Of a DNA stretch of 64,000 bases, positions 23,450-59,612 are shown piece after piece; position 1 is the stretch's first letter, and each line of letters starts with the position of its first letter. Under the pieces are notes generated by a model. It was not told the DNA's origin and did no database searches. It saw only the letters and a list, made by a program, of their open reading frames with translations. The translations under genes were made by a program, and so were the position numbers. The stretch is from Xanthostigma xanthostigma (taxonomy: Eukaryota > Arthropoda > Insecta > Raphidioptera > Raphidiidae), in the NCBI GenBank assembly GCA_963575645.1, contig OY754464.1:74870948-74934947 (forward strand), written 5' to 3'.

Positions 23450-23492
23450 TAATGAGCTGCTTTCGTATCATAATAGGTACATCATCAGATTA
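23450..23492 (-). ncRNA. Hammerhead ribozyme candidate, minimal type
   Basis: Minus strand: core CTGATGA (complement of 23482-23488), stem II GTA/TAC closing CCTATTATGA with one bulged T, GAAA (23461-23464), a 2-bp stem III (AG/CT) around loop CAG, cleavage triplet CTC (23454-23456), and 4-bp stem I pairing TAAT (before the core) with ATTA (after the triplet). The very short stem III is the form reported for hammerheads of Penelope-like elements. Stem II is weak, so activity is uncertain. Confidence 0.55.
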
Positions 23493-23934: not shown

Positions 23935-24003
23935 TTAGTGCAGTTAATTATTTATTCCACCAACGTTTCGATCGATATTCGATCTTTTTCAAGGTTCTAA
24001 AAA
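23935..24003 (-). repeat. Penelope-like terminal fragment, degenerate hammerhead
   Basis: Minus strand: TTGAAAAAGATCGAATATCG + ATCGAAACGTTGGTGG. The GATCG/CGATC stem II and GAAAC are intact, but the CUGANGA core reads TTGAAAA, so no cleavage is expected. This is the common remnant form of Penelope-like terminal repeats in insects (recollection). Confidence 0.5.
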
Positions 24004-37778: not shown

Positions 37779-38251
37779 ATTGCTCGTATTCCTCTCGGGA
37801 TAAAAACTATGACTAATTTGGAATGATTAACCTCTATCACTTGGGGGCCTGGAATGCGTCATTTTTTTATGATAATGACACTTCTGTGAAGAATATTTTA
37901 TTTTACTTTTTTTATTTATTGTAAGTTTTACCACACAACATAAAATCTAACAGTTTTCGTGGTTTTTAGCTTTAGTAAGATTGGCAAATTAGTAAGCTAT
38001 CGGATCATGGGAGAATTCAGGCCAAAAAGTGACAATATTTTTTTTTATTTTTAACTCCCGAAATTCGAATTTTTGTAAATAGAAAGAAGTAGATTTTCTC
38101 GAAAATGACGCATTTCCGATCCCCAAGTGATAGAGGTTAATTTTTTTAATTTTTCAATTAGGTACGCCATAAATTTGGAAATTTCAAAAGAAAATTTTAT
38201 TATAGAAAAGAAACGAAACGGTTGATTTATGAGTCAAATTTGTTTATTGTT

Positions 38252-38296
38252 GGAAGACTACGTTTCGACACCTGTTTTGGTGTCTTCCTCAGGTCT
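38252..38296 (-). ncRNA. Hammerhead-like motif (left arm)
   Basis: Minus strand: CTGAGGA, 6-bp stem II GACACC/GGTGTC around AAAACA, GAAAC, 2-bp stem III AC/GT with loop GTA, and triplet GTC. Stem I is not convincingly paired (C opposite T at the first position), so self-cleavage is doubtful. Confidence 0.4.
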
Positions 38297-38409
38297 TTAA
38301 TTAATTGACATTAATTGACCATAACATCACAAAATCTAATTCATACTTTACTGAAATTTAACAACGATCGCAATAAACTTGATCTAAGTATTACATTCTT
38401 ATTAATTAA

Positions 38410-38454
38410 AGACCTGAGGAAGACACCAAAACAGGTGTCGAAACGTAGTCTTCC
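38410..38454 (+). ncRNA. Hammerhead-like motif (right arm)
   Basis: Exact mirror of the left-arm motif on the plus strand: CTGAGGA 38414-38420, GAAAC 38440-38444, GTC 38448-38450. Same weak stem I. Confidence 0.4.
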
Positions 38455-38678
38455 TACAATAAACAAATTTGACTCATAAATCAACCGTTTCGTTTCTTTT
38501 CTATAATATACAATTGAGTGATCATGATTATTAAAGAAAATTTTATTTATTAAGCGCCTTAAATAAAATTTTTTTGGAAAGGATTTCTTCTTATTTTCAT
38601 CTGATAAACGTTAAACCATTTCAAATTAATCATAGTGTCTTCACTGGAGAAGAATACGAGCAATTACCGGTCACTCTG

Positions 38679-39243
38679 TATTATGTAAGAATATATATAA
38701 AAAAAACCTTTGCGAATTATTCTTGTACATTTTGAAGTACCTACATTTCCATAAATCACTTAAGTTCACACCTGACTACAACCCTGAACGCGAGTCACTT
38801 GAACGCAATATTACTTCGCATTTATGACCATTGTTATTAAAATCAATAATTAATGTGTACGAGACTGTACTAATTGCCACAGTGTTTTCAATTACCTACG
38901 TTGGCAGTACTGCGTGAATAAAAGTACCTACATGTATAGCGGAGCGCGCGACGTAGAAATTTTGTCGCCGTGTTTATTTAAACGTATTTTTAATTGAAAT
39001 ACGAAGTGCAGAATCGCTTCAAATTTAACACGAAAAAGTTTTTTTCAAATATTGGTTTAAGTCAAAAATTGTTCAATATTTTTTAGTAATGAAGATTATT
39101 TTTTAAACTGAATTTGTTAATGTTAACAGAAACCAAAACACAAAAAAATTAAACAAACTTGCCCATTTATTCCACTCCATTGTATTTATATTAAATAAAA
39201 TAAATATAAAAATTTTTAATATACCACCTCATTTGAAAGACAA
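38679..39243. other. Unassigned AT-rich spacer
   Basis: Nothing recognised. Confidence 0.4.
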
Positions 39244-39296
39244 AAATAAAATAAATAAAACAATTAAGTTAAAAAGATTTTCACTTTATTATAAAA

Positions 39297-39338
39297 ATAT
39301 GACATATGTTTCGCTGTCACAGCAGCTTCATCAGATAT
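39297..39338 (-). ncRNA. Hammerhead ribozyme candidate, canonical minimal fold
   Basis: Minus strand: stem I 5' ATAT, core CTGATGA (complement of 39328-39334), stem II AGCTG/CAGC around CTGTGA-like loop, GAAAC (39308-39312), 2-bp stem III AC/GT with loop ATAT, cleavage triplet GTC (39301-39303), stem I 3' ATAT. All conserved core residues and the preferred GUC triplet are present, and stem I pairs perfectly over 4 bp. Two-base-pair stem III is the form known from Penelope-like elements. Confidence 0.7.
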
Positions 39339-39376
39339 ACAGTATTACTGTTTACAAAAATCATCTATATAGGTAT

Positions 39377-40585
39377 ATATTCAAAGCAATGGCACGTCAG
39401 TCCGGTGTCGGAGAGGCAACCGGATGGCGAGTGGTAATCTGGGCCTATGAGTGGTACAGAACCCCCTGGTAGCGGCCAAAGTGACCCCAAATGGACGGGG
39501 GCGGCGATATGGGGGTGGGGCAAAATCGAAAAATGTTTGAAAAGGCAACCGGATAAAAATGCGGTTGCATTGAAGGAAATACCCTAATTATATAATCAAT
39601 TTTTTTTGCCATCCGATCCACGCGGGCCGTTTTTGCACTAGCGAATAAAAAAAAAATTAAAAAAAAACTGAAAAGGCAACCGCTTCAAAATTAGTGAGCA
39701 TACTTATTGACACCACCAAACGTTGGAAAAAAATTGCCATCCGATCCTGATGGGCAGTTTCGGAGAAACAACCCCTCAAAGTCGCCGAAAAACCCTTTTT
39801 TTCGATTTTTTCAACAATAAGTAAAAAAAACACACTAAAAATTGTTCAAATCGGATGGCATTCGAAATTTATACTGTCCTAAGTACAAATAATAGTGTGT
39901 ATCAATGCCATCCGATTTCGATTAAATTTACCCCTATTTAGCCACCCCCAAAACTCATGAAAATAACAATTTTATGCAGCGTATGGCATTATTTTTCTTG
40001 TTATTGAGTTTTGGGGGTTGGCTAAATAGGGGTAAATTTAATCAAAATCGGATGGCATTGATACACACTATTATTTGTACTTAGGACAGTATAAATTTCG
40101 AATGCCATCCGATTTGAACAATTTTTAGTGTGTTTTTTTTACTTAATGTTGAAAAAATCGAAAAAAAGGGTTTTTCGGCAACTTTGAGGGGTTGTTTCTC
40201 CGAAACTGCCCATCAGGATCGGATGGCAATTTTTTTCCAACGTTTGGTGGTGTCAATAAGTATGCTCACTAATTTTGAAGCGGTTGCCTTTTCAGTTTTT
40301 TTTTAATTTTTTTTTTATTCGCTAGTGCAAAAACGGCCCGCGTGGATCGGATGGCAAAAAAAATTGATTATATAATTAGGGTATTTCCTTCAATGCAACC
40401 GCATTTTTATCCGGTTGCCTTTTCAAACATTTTTCGATTTTGCCCCACCCCCATATCGCCGCCCCCGTCCATTTGGGGTCACTTTGGCCGCTACCAGGGG
40501 GTTCTGTACCACTCATAGGCCCAGATTACCACTCGCCATCCGGTTGCCTCTCCGACACCGGACTGACGTGCCATTGCTTTGAATA
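39377..40585. mobile_element. 1.2-kb near-perfect palindrome (foldback element)
   Basis: Arms of about 590 bp (39380-39969 and 39998-40582) are inverted copies with few mismatches, separated by about 28 bp (TTTTATGCAGCGTATGGCAT + TATTTTTC). Outer ends ATATTCAAAGCAATGGCACG. The direct repeat ATATAGGTAT flanks it at 39367-39376 and 40586-40595, a 9-10 bp duplication of Mutator-like size. Each arm repeats the words GCCATCCGAT(C) and GGCAACCGGAT several times. No coding frame. Also explainable as an inverted duplication, but the duplication at the edges argues for transposition. Confidence 0.75.
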
Positions 40586-40640
40586 ATATAGGTATTTCAT
40601 CAAGTAAAGGCAGAAACTATTAGATTCATTTGAAAGACAA

Positions 40641-41104
40641 TTTCCATTCGGGTGTGTCAATTTTTTTTATTCTGTCGCTTAGTTACGGAGATAATGATAT
40701 TTGAAAACCATAACGGCTAACAATTCATGAACTATTTTGTAGGTTTTATGAGTAATTCAACTCTTATTATTGGTAGGCATTATGATCAGCGGTAGTAATA
40801 TTTATTAGTAATAATATAGTACGTATCAACACAAAGTAAGTACTATTCTACAATGAATAACTAACACAAAACACATATGTTCACGTTAGCGACACAATTA
40901 AATACACAAAATAGTGTCGCCAACATAACAATCACATTATTTGATTATATGCATGCGAACATATAAAGTTAGTAGGACGTTATGTAACTTTGTTTAATAG
41001 TTACTATAATCCATTAGGTATTAAACTATTTATGTGAATTGCCCCACTGCGTTCAGAGTTCATGTCGGCATATTATATAGATTTACAGTTTGAGTTTCAA
41101 ATAT
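40641..41104. other. Unassigned spacer
   Basis: Nothing recognised. Confidence 0.4.
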
Positions 41105-51379: not shown

Positions 51380-54259
51380 TTAATATTTAAAATCGTTAAC
51401 TGAGTATAAACAACATGATTGCAATCTTTTCTTTAATTCAGACTTAAATTTAGAATATGGCATTGTAGTTAAATGTGCCGGTAGTGCGTTGTGTATTCGT
51501 AGCGCCGCACACTCAGGACTATTGAAAAGTAGTGATAAGTTACACTTAGGTAAAATGATTTTCTTATTGTGACGTGTTTGATAATTATGTTTAGTACAAG
51601 AAAGAGAAAATCTGTTTTTATGTTTTTGTATATAGCACAAAGAAAAATATATGTACATTGAAGGAACAGTTAAGATGTGATGTTTCACAAAATACTCCTT
51701 ACAACTATCTCGAAACCCAAGATTAAAAATAGTTCTAATGGCTTTTTTCTGCAGCAAAAAAATTCTATTGATCGCGGAGGTGCTACAGCCCCAAAACATG
51801 ATTCCATATTTGACGTGTTGGAAGAAATATGCGTAATAAGTAGTCAGGTCTAAATTAAGATCATAACAACTATGATGTATTTTTCGTAGCGCAAATAAAG
51901 ATCTTGCTAGCTTAGAACTTAAATTGGAAATGTGTTCAGTCCAGTTTAGGGTATCAGAAATAGTCACACCTAAGAAGTTGAAGGAATGTGTTTTTTCTAG
52001 CGGAATGTTATTAGATACTACGGTCAGATTAATATCCCTATTTCCCTGAGGAGTATGGAAAACCATATACTGAGTTTTACTCAGATTTAAGCATAAAGAG
52101 TTATCGTGGCACCAATAAGAAAATTCATCAATAGAAGATTGAACCTTATTTTGAAGTTCGAGTGGATTGTTAGCAACCGATATGAAGCAGGTATCGTCAG
52201 CATACATCACTAAACGATCACAAGTTACGCAAGAGGACAGGTCGTTAATATATAAGATAAAAAGTATCGGGCCCAAAACGGACCCTTGAGGAACGCCAGT
52301 TGTAATACTTTTGGGCTCAGATGTTGAACTAGCAATGCGGACGAGTTGCTTACGATCACTGAGATAGGATTTGATCCAGTTTAATGCATTACCACGTATC
52401 CCAATATGTTGAATTTTTGTTAATAACCGTTTATGGTCGACTGTATCGAAAGCTTTGCTTAGATCACAAAAAACAGCTGAAACATATTTCTTATTGTTTA
52501 GGCTTTCGGATATGATTTGGATCAACTCGTAAATTCCATCCTCCGTACACTTATTTTTACAAAAGCCATTTTGAGCAGAGCAGATTATGTTGTTTTTTTG
52601 CAAAAACGAATTAATTCTCAAGCAAAAAGCACATTCAAAAATCTTAGAGAATGTCGGTAACACAGATATCGGTCGATAGTTTGCCATATCGGTTTTATCA
52701 CCCTTCTTGAAAACAGGGATGGTTTTCGCAAATTTTAGAACTGATGGAAAGACACCATTAGAAAAGGAGATATTAATAAGGTGAGTAAGGGGTTTAATTA
52801 AAAAGTTACAGTTTTTTATCAACATGTTTGGTATCTCATCTACGCCACATGAAAAATCATTTTTTAAATTTTCAAGAAGTTTTTTTGTTTCGTTATCAGA
52901 AAATGGCACAAGAAACATTGAATCAACCATGCTAGAAATTGGATTATAAATGTGATTTGCAGATGCTAGCTTAAGAACATTGGTAACATTAAGAAAATGT
53001 AAATTAAAAGCATTAGCAATTTCCTTATTGTTTGAAACTAAGGATCCGTTTATAGAGATGGAATGCTGGGCAATTTCCTGATTGGATACTCCTTTTAATT
53101 CGGAGTTAACTATGGACCACATAGCCTTTCCCTTATTGGTTGCATTATTAATTTTATTTTTGTAATAATTTGATTTTGTTGATTTTAAAATTTGTTTATA
53201 CTCAGTTTTCAATGCCGTGAAGGCATCATTAAAAATTGGATATCGTTTACTTAAGAAATAAAGATTGTCTAAATTATTTTTTAATTCTAAGAGATCATTA
53301 GTCATCCACATATTTTTATGTTTTCTTTCATTAAGATTAACCTTTTTTAAAGGGAACGCAATATTAAAATAATATAAAAAGGTCTCATAAAATATATTAA
53401 AAGCCTTATCGATATCAAAACAAGATAAGACGTCAGTCCATAATTCATTACTAAATAAATAGGAAAAGTATTGTTTATTTACGTCTGTATAAAATCTTCT
53501 TCGTATGAAAGTCGATTTATTTTTTAAAACATCATAGATAGGAAACTGCAATATCTGAGAGTAATGGTCGGAAATATAAGTCTGTATATTGTAAGCACTA
53601 GTATGCTTAAAATTAATTGCGATATTGTCAATTACAGTTGCAGAATTATTTTTAACACGAGTAGGTGAGTTAATAGTAATTTCTAGATTAAAGCTTTTGA
53701 GAAAATCGCACAGTAAGTTTTTATTACGACTTTCAACTGAAAAATCAACATTAAAATCACCGGCAATTATGATATTATCATTATTTTTGTCAAATTTAAT
53801 TAAAACTTGATTCAAAAGATCAATAAAGTCTATAACAGATTCATGCGGTGATCTATAAATCGTAAGTACAACATACTTTACAGAATTTAACGAAAACTCG
53901 ACACCACAGCACTCAAAAACTTGCTCAATACACAAGTTCTCAATAAAATTTATCTTTTGAAAATTAAGATTATTACGCACAAAAATGACAACACCACCAT
54001 GAATATTCACTTTTCTACAAAAAGAACTAGCAAGGCAAAAATTGTTCAGATGTATTGTTTGGATTTCTGCAGGATAAAGCCAACTTTCAGAGATGCAAAC
54101 CATATCAGATTTTGTATCCGATAATAATAGATTAAGTTCTTCCGTTTTGTCTCTGATGGAACATATATTCATATGTAAGATAGTAAAAACTGTAGAGGCA
54201 ATCGAGCTAGATGAGCTAATTTTGGCGGTTTCTGTATCGCAGAAAAAACCGCTTGACAA
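51380..54259 (-). CDS. LINE ORF2: APE endonuclease and reverse transcriptase
   Basis: An uninterrupted frame of about 959 residues encodes the enzyme that nicks target DNA and copies the element's RNA in the nucleus. The AP-like endonuclease spans about 25-240: ESW at 58-60, AGDFNVDF at 166-173, SDH at 230-232. The reverse transcriptase spans about 470-750: PVFKKGD at 515-521, FCDLSKAFD at 597-605, GVPQGSVLGP at 655-664, catalytic YADD at 686-689. The thumb and C-terminal part (FLGVTISDTLNW, FWGCSTSA, NYQTRHNKKIILP) matches the truncated LINE tails nearby. The first codon of the open frame is TTG and the first ATG is at residue 30, so the start is uncertain. ORF2 overlaps the end of ORF1 by about 44 bp, suggesting reinitiation. 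No stop or frameshift is visible and all key residues are present. Confidence 0.92.
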   Translation of the reverse strand: MSSGFFCDTETAKISSSSSIASTVFTILHMNICSIRDKTEELNLLLSDTKSDMVCISESWLYPAEIQTIHLNNFCLASSFCRKVNIHGGVVIFVRNNLNFQKINFIENLCIEQVFECCGVEFSLNSVKYVVLTIYRSPHESVIDFIDLLNQVLIKFDKNNDNIIIAGDFNVDFSVESRNKNLLCDFLKSFNLEITINSPTRVKNNSATVIDNIAINFKHTSAYNIQTYISDHYSQILQFPIYDVLKNKSTFIRRRFYTDVNKQYFSYLFSNELWTDVLSCFDIDKAFNIFYETFLYYFNIAFPLKKVNLNERKHKNMWMTNDLLELKNNLDNLYFLSKRYPIFNDAFTALKTEYKQILKSTKSNYYKNKINNATNKGKAMWSIVNSELKGVSNQEIAQHSISINGSLVSNNKEIANAFNLHFLNVTNVLKLASANHIYNPISSMVDSMFLVPFSDNETKKLLENLKNDFSCGVDEIPNMLIKNCNFLIKPLTHLINISFSNGVFPSVLKFAKTIPVFKKGDKTDMANYRPISVLPTFSKIFECAFCLRINSFLQKNNIICSAQNGFCKNKCTEDGIYELIQIISESLNNKKYVSAVFCDLSKAFDTVDHKRLLTKIQHIGIRGNALNWIKSYLSDRKQLVRIASSTSEPKSITTGVPQGSVLGPILFILYINDLSSCVTCDRLVMYADDTCFISVANNPLELQNKVQSSIDEFSYWCHDNSLCLNLSKTQYMVFHTPQGNRDINLTVVSNNIPLEKTHSFNFLGVTISDTLNWTEHISNLSSKLARSLFALRKIHHSCYDLNLDLTTYYAYFFQHVKYGIMFWGCSTSAINRIFLLQKKAIRTIFNLGFRDSCKEYFVKHHILTVPSMYIYFSLCYIQKHKNRFSLSCTKHNYQTRHNKKIILPKCNLSLLFNSPECAALRIHNALPAHLTTMPYSKFKSELKKRLQSCCLYSVNDFKY

Positions 54260-56530: not shown

Positions 56531-56970
56531 AAGGTTTTTATTTTTTTTTAGACTGTTAAAAAAAGTCTTCTCTATCTTTTTAGGCAAACAATTTTGACGG
56601 AAACTGTCGATATTACCATTTGGAATACATCCAATAAATTTTAAAATCTTAAAAATTATTTTATACTTTGGAATCGATCCTAGATATAAAATTATAATAA
56701 ATCTTTTCAAACTTGGACATAAACTTGTTCTAAATCTAAAAGCTCTACTTCGGCAGATTATTATTTCTGAGAAATAAAACAAATGTCTGATCGTAACTTA
56801 AGATGAACAACAAATAAATGTAAACAAAAGAAATATGTAATTAAAGAGTAATTAAAATGCATTATGTTTCACCCCAATCATTTCCACAAAATTTTATACT
56901 TTTTTCTAGAAATTTACTTTACTCACTATTTTCAACATTTAATATTTCGTCAGCAAATATACAGAGTGAT
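56531..56970. other. Unassigned spacer
   Basis: A minus-strand frame at 56369-56782 partly covers the repeat above and has no recognised domain. Confidence 0.35.
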
Positions 56971-59499: not shown

Positions 59500-59564
59500 T
59501 TATCGACCAATTTTTCAGACAATATATTAACAAAAAAATATATAAATTAATACATTAACGTTTC

Positions 59565-59612
59565 GATCCGGATTTGGACCTTCTTCAGAACTGATCTAAA
59601 AATATAAAAAAT
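59565..59612 (-). ncRNA. Hammerhead-like motif of the Penelope-like terminus
   Basis: Minus strand: CTGAAGA, stem II GGTCC/GGATC around AAATCC, GAAAC, then GTTAATGTA. The core fits CUGANGA...GAAA; stem III could be AC/GT with triplet GTA. Stem I does not pair well, so activity is doubtful. Confidence 0.45.

Follow-up and report, generated by a model that had tools for sequence, protein, structure and literature searches.

A small hammerhead motif in a truncated, inverted stub of a Penelope-like element from Xanthostigma xanthostigma

A complete small hammerhead motif occurs on the minus strand of a stretch of 64,000 nucleotides from Xanthostigma xanthostigma (contig OY754464.1), the whole of which is called the window in the following. 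Very probably, this motif is a small, dimer-type hammerhead of a family of endonuclease-bearing Penelope-like elements (PLEs), and the copy in the window is a truncated and inverted stub which was later split by a foldback transposon. The features of the locus are listed in Table 1.

Table 1. Features of the PLE stub and of the foldback transposon inserted into it (window positions).
Feature	Position	Strand	Basis or remark
Left copy, 15-bp target duplication of PLE stub	39229..39243	+	exact repeat
Tailless PLE arm with hammerhead, inverted	39244..39374	-	family matches; boundaries
Small hammerhead motif	39297..39338	-	motif letters, full-motif scan, family alignment; predicted cut between 39301 and 39300
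Palindromic stem III ACATATGT	39302..39309	-	letters, fold energies, comparison of motif strings
Left copy, 3-bp duplication ATA of palindromic transposon	39375..39377	+	
Palindromic (foldback) transposon, 1,208 bp, ends TATTCAAAGC/GCTTTGAATA	39378..40585	.	later insertion into stub
Right copy, 3-bp duplication ATA	40586..40588	+	
Tailed PLE arm TTTCATCAAGTAAAGGCAGAAACTATTAGAT	40595..40625	+	
Right copy, 15-bp target duplication	40626..40640	+	exact repeat

The hammerhead motif and its palindromic stem III

On the minus strand, the complete motif reads ATAT-CTGATGA-A-GCTG(CTGTGA)CAGC-GAA-ACATATGT-C-ATAT. The first ATAT (39338-39335) is followed by CTGATGA (39334-39328) and one unpaired A (39327). 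Stem II is formed by GCTG and CAGC (39326-39323 paired with 39316-39313) around the loop CTGTGA, and the 3′ part consists of GAA (39312-39310), the palindrome, C17 (39301) and the second ATAT (39300-39297). The core of a type I hammerhead (CTGANGA, GAAA, UH) is present; helices I and II have 4 bp each, and helix III would comprise 2 bp in the monomer and 8 bp in the dimer. A preliminary description of this DNA had proposed a hammerhead at this place, and direct reading confirms the letters that it gave, including CTGATGA and a stem II of at least 4 bp, except that one extra base (39327) separates these two.

When the window was scanned for complete minimal hammerheads, three candidates were found (39297-39338, 23454-23488 and 56909-56953), as compared to an expected number of 0.055 per 64 kb (200 Markov shuffles). 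The motif described here is the best formed of the three, and for a stem II and a stem I of at least 4 bp each combined with a short stem III, 200 Markov shuffles give an expectation of 0.005 per window. The candidate at 56909-56953 is weak. The one at 23454-23488 (minus strand) reads CTGATGA-T-GTACC..GATAC-GAAAGCAGCTC, with a stem I of 4 bp.

The preliminary description had also called for a covariance-model search. Rfam reported no hammerhead, neither for the whole window at gathering scores nor for positions 38900-41000 when relaxed to E = 10, where the matches are microRNA precursors and others, mostly inside the palindrome of the foldback element. This is what could be said for a chance match to the hammerhead consensus, an explanation which we consider negligible given the 0.005 motifs of this quality expected per window and the conserved core of the repeat family of which the motif is a member. 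As no hammerhead family appeared among the Rfam matches, we refer to the element as a variant motif and do not claim membership of any Rfam family. Judged by its letters, the small hammerhead motif is complete, and it exceeds what chance would produce.

Stem III had been described as 2 bp long with a loop ATAT. These letters are correct, but they represent a perfect 8-nt palindrome, and the hammerhead fold of the monomer is unstable (+0.5 kcal/mol, whereas these 42 nt reach -6.2 kcal/mol in their best fold). For the dimer, the hammerhead fold has a computed energy of -10.8 kcal/mol and the lowest other fold one of -20.0 kcal/mol. The modelled energies thus agree with a dimer hammerhead only in part, and energy alone prefers other folds for the monomer as well as for the dimer. 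Three single-strand folds around the motif are no stabler than shuffled sequences (z of 0.17, 0.83 and 0.53).

We scanned 310 kb, made up of the window and of partly overlapping loci picked for the hammerhead family or the foldback element, for strings in which CTGANGA is followed by a stem of 4 bp or more and GAAA. Stem III is palindromic in 21 of the 22 distinct strings, a count that does not come from a random sample because the loci overlap and were chosen by family; the sole exception is the weak candidate at 56909-56953. The palindromes found after the GAAA core are ACATATGT, ACATGT, ACATATATGT, ACGT, ATGTACAT and ACGATCGT, and each is followed by C, T or A. A looser scan which also allows CCGANGA adds two strings; that from L039 has a palindrome, and that from L052 (1386) does not. 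In 172,612 of the scanned bases, 20 palindromic motifs were observed while 0.13 were expected (60 simulations), but many of the 20 are copies of one family. In copies from L049 and L023, stem III is ACATATATGT or ACATGT, so that its length has changed and the palindrome has been kept. The extra base between CTGANGA and stem II, represented by A 39327 in the window motif, is found in 20 of the 22 strings. Such a base may be typical of PLE hammerheads elsewhere.

Hammerheads that act as dimers would be expected to have a palindromic stem III, since two ribozymes, from adjacent units or from two RNAs, would pair through it into the active fold. Motifs with ACGT as stem III probably could act as dimers only, because ACGT is unable to close a hairpin. 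That PLE hammerheads may self-cleave as dimers is stated in a review (PMC7761336), and for a hammerhead from Aedes a palindromic loop III was described and a dimer proposed (PMC3088659).

The repeat family of the stub

A search with positions 39245-39381 against the host genome (623 Mb, 28 contigs) gave at least 44 matches when 40 of 1278 candidates were scored; this number includes the window copy as well as some partial pieces. The relatives share a stretch of several hundred bases that ends at one place. In the first 30 loci we found 42 units, of which 34 have the whole motif; the other eight lack it and were skipped. The core (CTGATGA and GAAACATATGT, then C or T) is kept in 31 of the 34 whole-motif units, so that genomic copies with a conserved core, as sought by the preliminary description, do exist. 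Deviations were found in the second unit of L008 (core), in L010 (core and stem I) and in the second unit of L023 (shorter palindrome). Within the 42-nt motif, 17 of 1428 letters are off the majority, 8 of these being C or T at the cleavage-site position, as compared to 142 of 3264 letters in the rest of the unit, a figure that is inflated by truncated copies. Of 150 cells examined for the ten base pairs of the proposed fold (15 distinct rows from 17 sequences chosen from the 34), 99.3% are consistent with pairing, and no pair covaries within these 17 sequences, a result which is uninformative.

This conservation has to be weighed against the possibility that the ribozyme is a fossil, out of use in the window copy and perhaps in the whole family. 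An unstable monomer fold, the lack of an Rfam match and the truncation of the copies would all be compatible with a fossil, and recent spread from one master would likewise preserve the motif. However, the core has been kept in nearly all whole-motif units, the motif has few off-majority letters compared to the rest of the unit (with the caveat given above), and several other motif families with the same architecture occur in the 310 kb scanned. We are inclined to doubt that the ribozyme is a fossil, although this explanation retains appreciable weight.

In relatives, a frame reading NKSGVYQLNCGSCPKTYIGQTGRAFKTRIKDH is found upstream of the motif. With the GIY-YIG model from Pfam, one of four fragments scores 24.2 bits (cut-off 22.6) and the other three remain just below the cut-off with 21.7, 22.1 and 22.3 bits; a comparison of the endonuclease fragment to PDB sequences gave no match up to E = 1. 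This GIY-YIG endonuclease frame is present in relatives and absent from the window copy. In L049, 135 nt separate the endonuclease stop from the hammerhead motif that follows it, and in L005 the predicted cut precedes the ATG of the tail by 61 nt. There are two places where family copies stop. One is a T-rich run that immediately precedes ATGGATTTTCATCAAG, and the other, at GAAACTATTAGA, is 36 nt further in when counted from the ATG. Further PLE features of the family are a constant tail at the copy ends, inverted ends with short target duplications, and a hammerhead, recognized as a sequence motif, in the unit junction (pLTR). The copies that were read are all 5′-truncated, and neither a reverse transcriptase nor an autonomous copy of the family was seen among them. 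The assignment to an endonuclease-bearing PLE, and thus the Penelope-like origin of the hammerhead which the preliminary description had suggested, is supported by these sequence features.

Within the window, the stub had been regarded as a single unit between 15-bp direct repeats. These repeats are exact, and without the foldback transposon the stub between them has 171 bp, similar to the 160-bp unit that was proposed, but most of the interval belongs to a separate transposon. This foldback transposon occurs in at least 39 other genomic places (40 of 807 candidates were scored), and its 3-bp duplications are found in all 12 loci compared, window included; L034 also has ATA on both sides. Its arms are 99% complementary, there are many near-identical genomic copies, and by its look it is non-autonomous. 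As it has its own 3-bp duplication and is found in 39 other places, it must have been inserted later. For the same reasons, we do not assign the foldback arms to the ribozyme unit.

The absence of coding sequence from the stub, correctly stated before, is explained by truncation. It had been taken to mean that the stub could be a ribozyme-only mobile unit. Such a unit would be an animal retrozyme of about 160-170 bp which spreads via self-cleaved circular RNA. The window copy is indeed short and non-coding, and has a type I hammerhead as well as 15-bp duplications; moreover, there are animal retrozymes of about 170-400 nt, and PLEs have been suggested to mobilize them (PMC7229834). However, the sequence shared by the relatives extends upstream into the endonuclease frame, and the break point of the window stub is not common to the other loci inspected. 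In addition, neighbouring motif pairs in the loci of the 35 insertions analysed below are on opposite strands in eight cases and on the same strand in none, so that dimeric (tandem) copies, for which the preliminary description proposed a search, were not seen there. A retrozyme is therefore very improbable, and we consider the window copy to be a 5′-truncated, twin-ended (inverted) PLE stub that is unable to move by itself.

Several other elements were noticed in the window. A second PLE-like inverted stub (38198-38508) has two opposite hammerhead-like motifs, at 38245-38304 (minus strand) and 38402-38461 (plus strand), which read CTGAGGA-A-GACACC..GGTGTC-GAAACGT-A; their stem III is ACGT without a loop, and model E-values are only 0.4 and 0.15. 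A hammerhead-like core of a third type, CTGAAGAAGGTCCAAATCCGGATCGAAACGTT, is found at 59557-59588 (minus strand), and similar strings occur in L016, L017, L043, L048 and L052. At about 23940-24000 (minus strand), GATCGAATATCGATCGAAACGTTGG follows an altered CTGANGA-like stretch and, by eye, is possibly a decayed PLE hammerhead. Finally, an open frame of 959 codons (51380-54259, minus strand) with reverse transcriptase and endonuclease/exonuclease domains represents an apparently intact non-LTR retrotransposon.

Unlike ends of PLE insertions

We examined the ends of 35 insertions, a sample chosen by similarity to one arm and from which the duplicate loci L003, L006 and L029 had been excluded. 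A single recognizable end was found in nine of them. The other 26 have two ends, and in all 26 one end is tailed and the other is tailless; not a single two-ended insertion has two like ends. The second end is long in 17 and 4 cases, and in the remaining five it is a short remnant of roughly 6-13 nt, with lengths judged by reading. End motifs served to assign the end types. The best of the direct repeats is not always beside the ends (e.g. in L014 and L046; there is none in L027).

A tail at one inverted PLE end is already in print, where it is called optional. The PLE literature that was searched, which missed important papers and was available in part, contains no statement of an obligatory tailed/tailless rule. 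For the element from Anolis, the two strands were reported not to differ in their start site in vitro (PMC11167929). The strictness of the pattern may be informative. Whether two different RNA sites are regularly, rather than optionally, used to start the two insertion ends is in our view evenly balanced. If they are, priming of the two target strands would follow a fixed order, perhaps on a single RNA that an enzyme dimer holds, and the tail would be an obligatory footprint of twin priming.

Proposed origin of the stub and comparison with known PLEs

The sequence of the PLE hammerhead suggests cleavage, dimerization and a role in the life cycle of the element. In a tandem transcript, the predicted cut would fall between units, and this would provide the next unit with a defined 5′ end. 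The stub, whose anatomy is directly observed, may have arisen by the following order of priming. Each of the two nicked target strands would have served as a start point for cDNA synthesis, one using the tail site and the other the tailless site; both reactions would have stopped early, leaving the inverted stub between its target duplications. Subsequently, as its own duplication shows, the foldback transposon was inserted between the two arms.

The family resembles Pen2a from Adineta (PMC3846280) and PAc from Anolis (PMC11167929) in having a GIY-YIG frame, inverted copies at two ends, a tail of 30-40 bp on one end, short target duplications and a hammerhead near the unit junction. In PAc (PMC11167929), the hammerhead contains the start codon, and the cut lies 26 bp downstream of this codon, whereas in the present family the predicted cut precedes the ATG. 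Also, one tailed end is found in each of the two-ended insertions described here, while the tail is optional in published PLEs. With the small dimer-cleaving PLE hammerheads (Cervera and de la Pena 2014; Luense, Weinberg and Breaker 2017; both via PMC7761336) our motif shares the CTGANGA and GAAA core and a stem III that is missing or minimal; in a comparison by description, no difference has been established (PMC7761336). The hammerhead from Aedes aegypti is similar in that its stem and loop III are self-complementary and a dimer is possible, the dimer stem having 10 bp as compared to 8 bp here (PMC3088659). Animal retrozymes (PMC7229834) also have a type I hammerhead in a short non-coding stretch, but the present family differs from them in that no tandem direct copies were seen and a coding region is located upstream.

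For the one PLE hammerhead tested in the study of the Anolis element, protein was needed for cleavage, and the hammerhead was dispensable for insertion in vitro (PMC11167929). How PLEs move was still considered an open question in this 2024 paper.

In summary, a striking motif could be assigned to a Penelope-like hammerhead, and the case illustrates that a truncated, twin-ended copy can mimic a ribozyme-only mobile unit. The palindromic stem III, which points to dimer cleavage, and the unlike ends, which may reflect ordered twin priming, are testable regularities that bear on the movement of PLEs.
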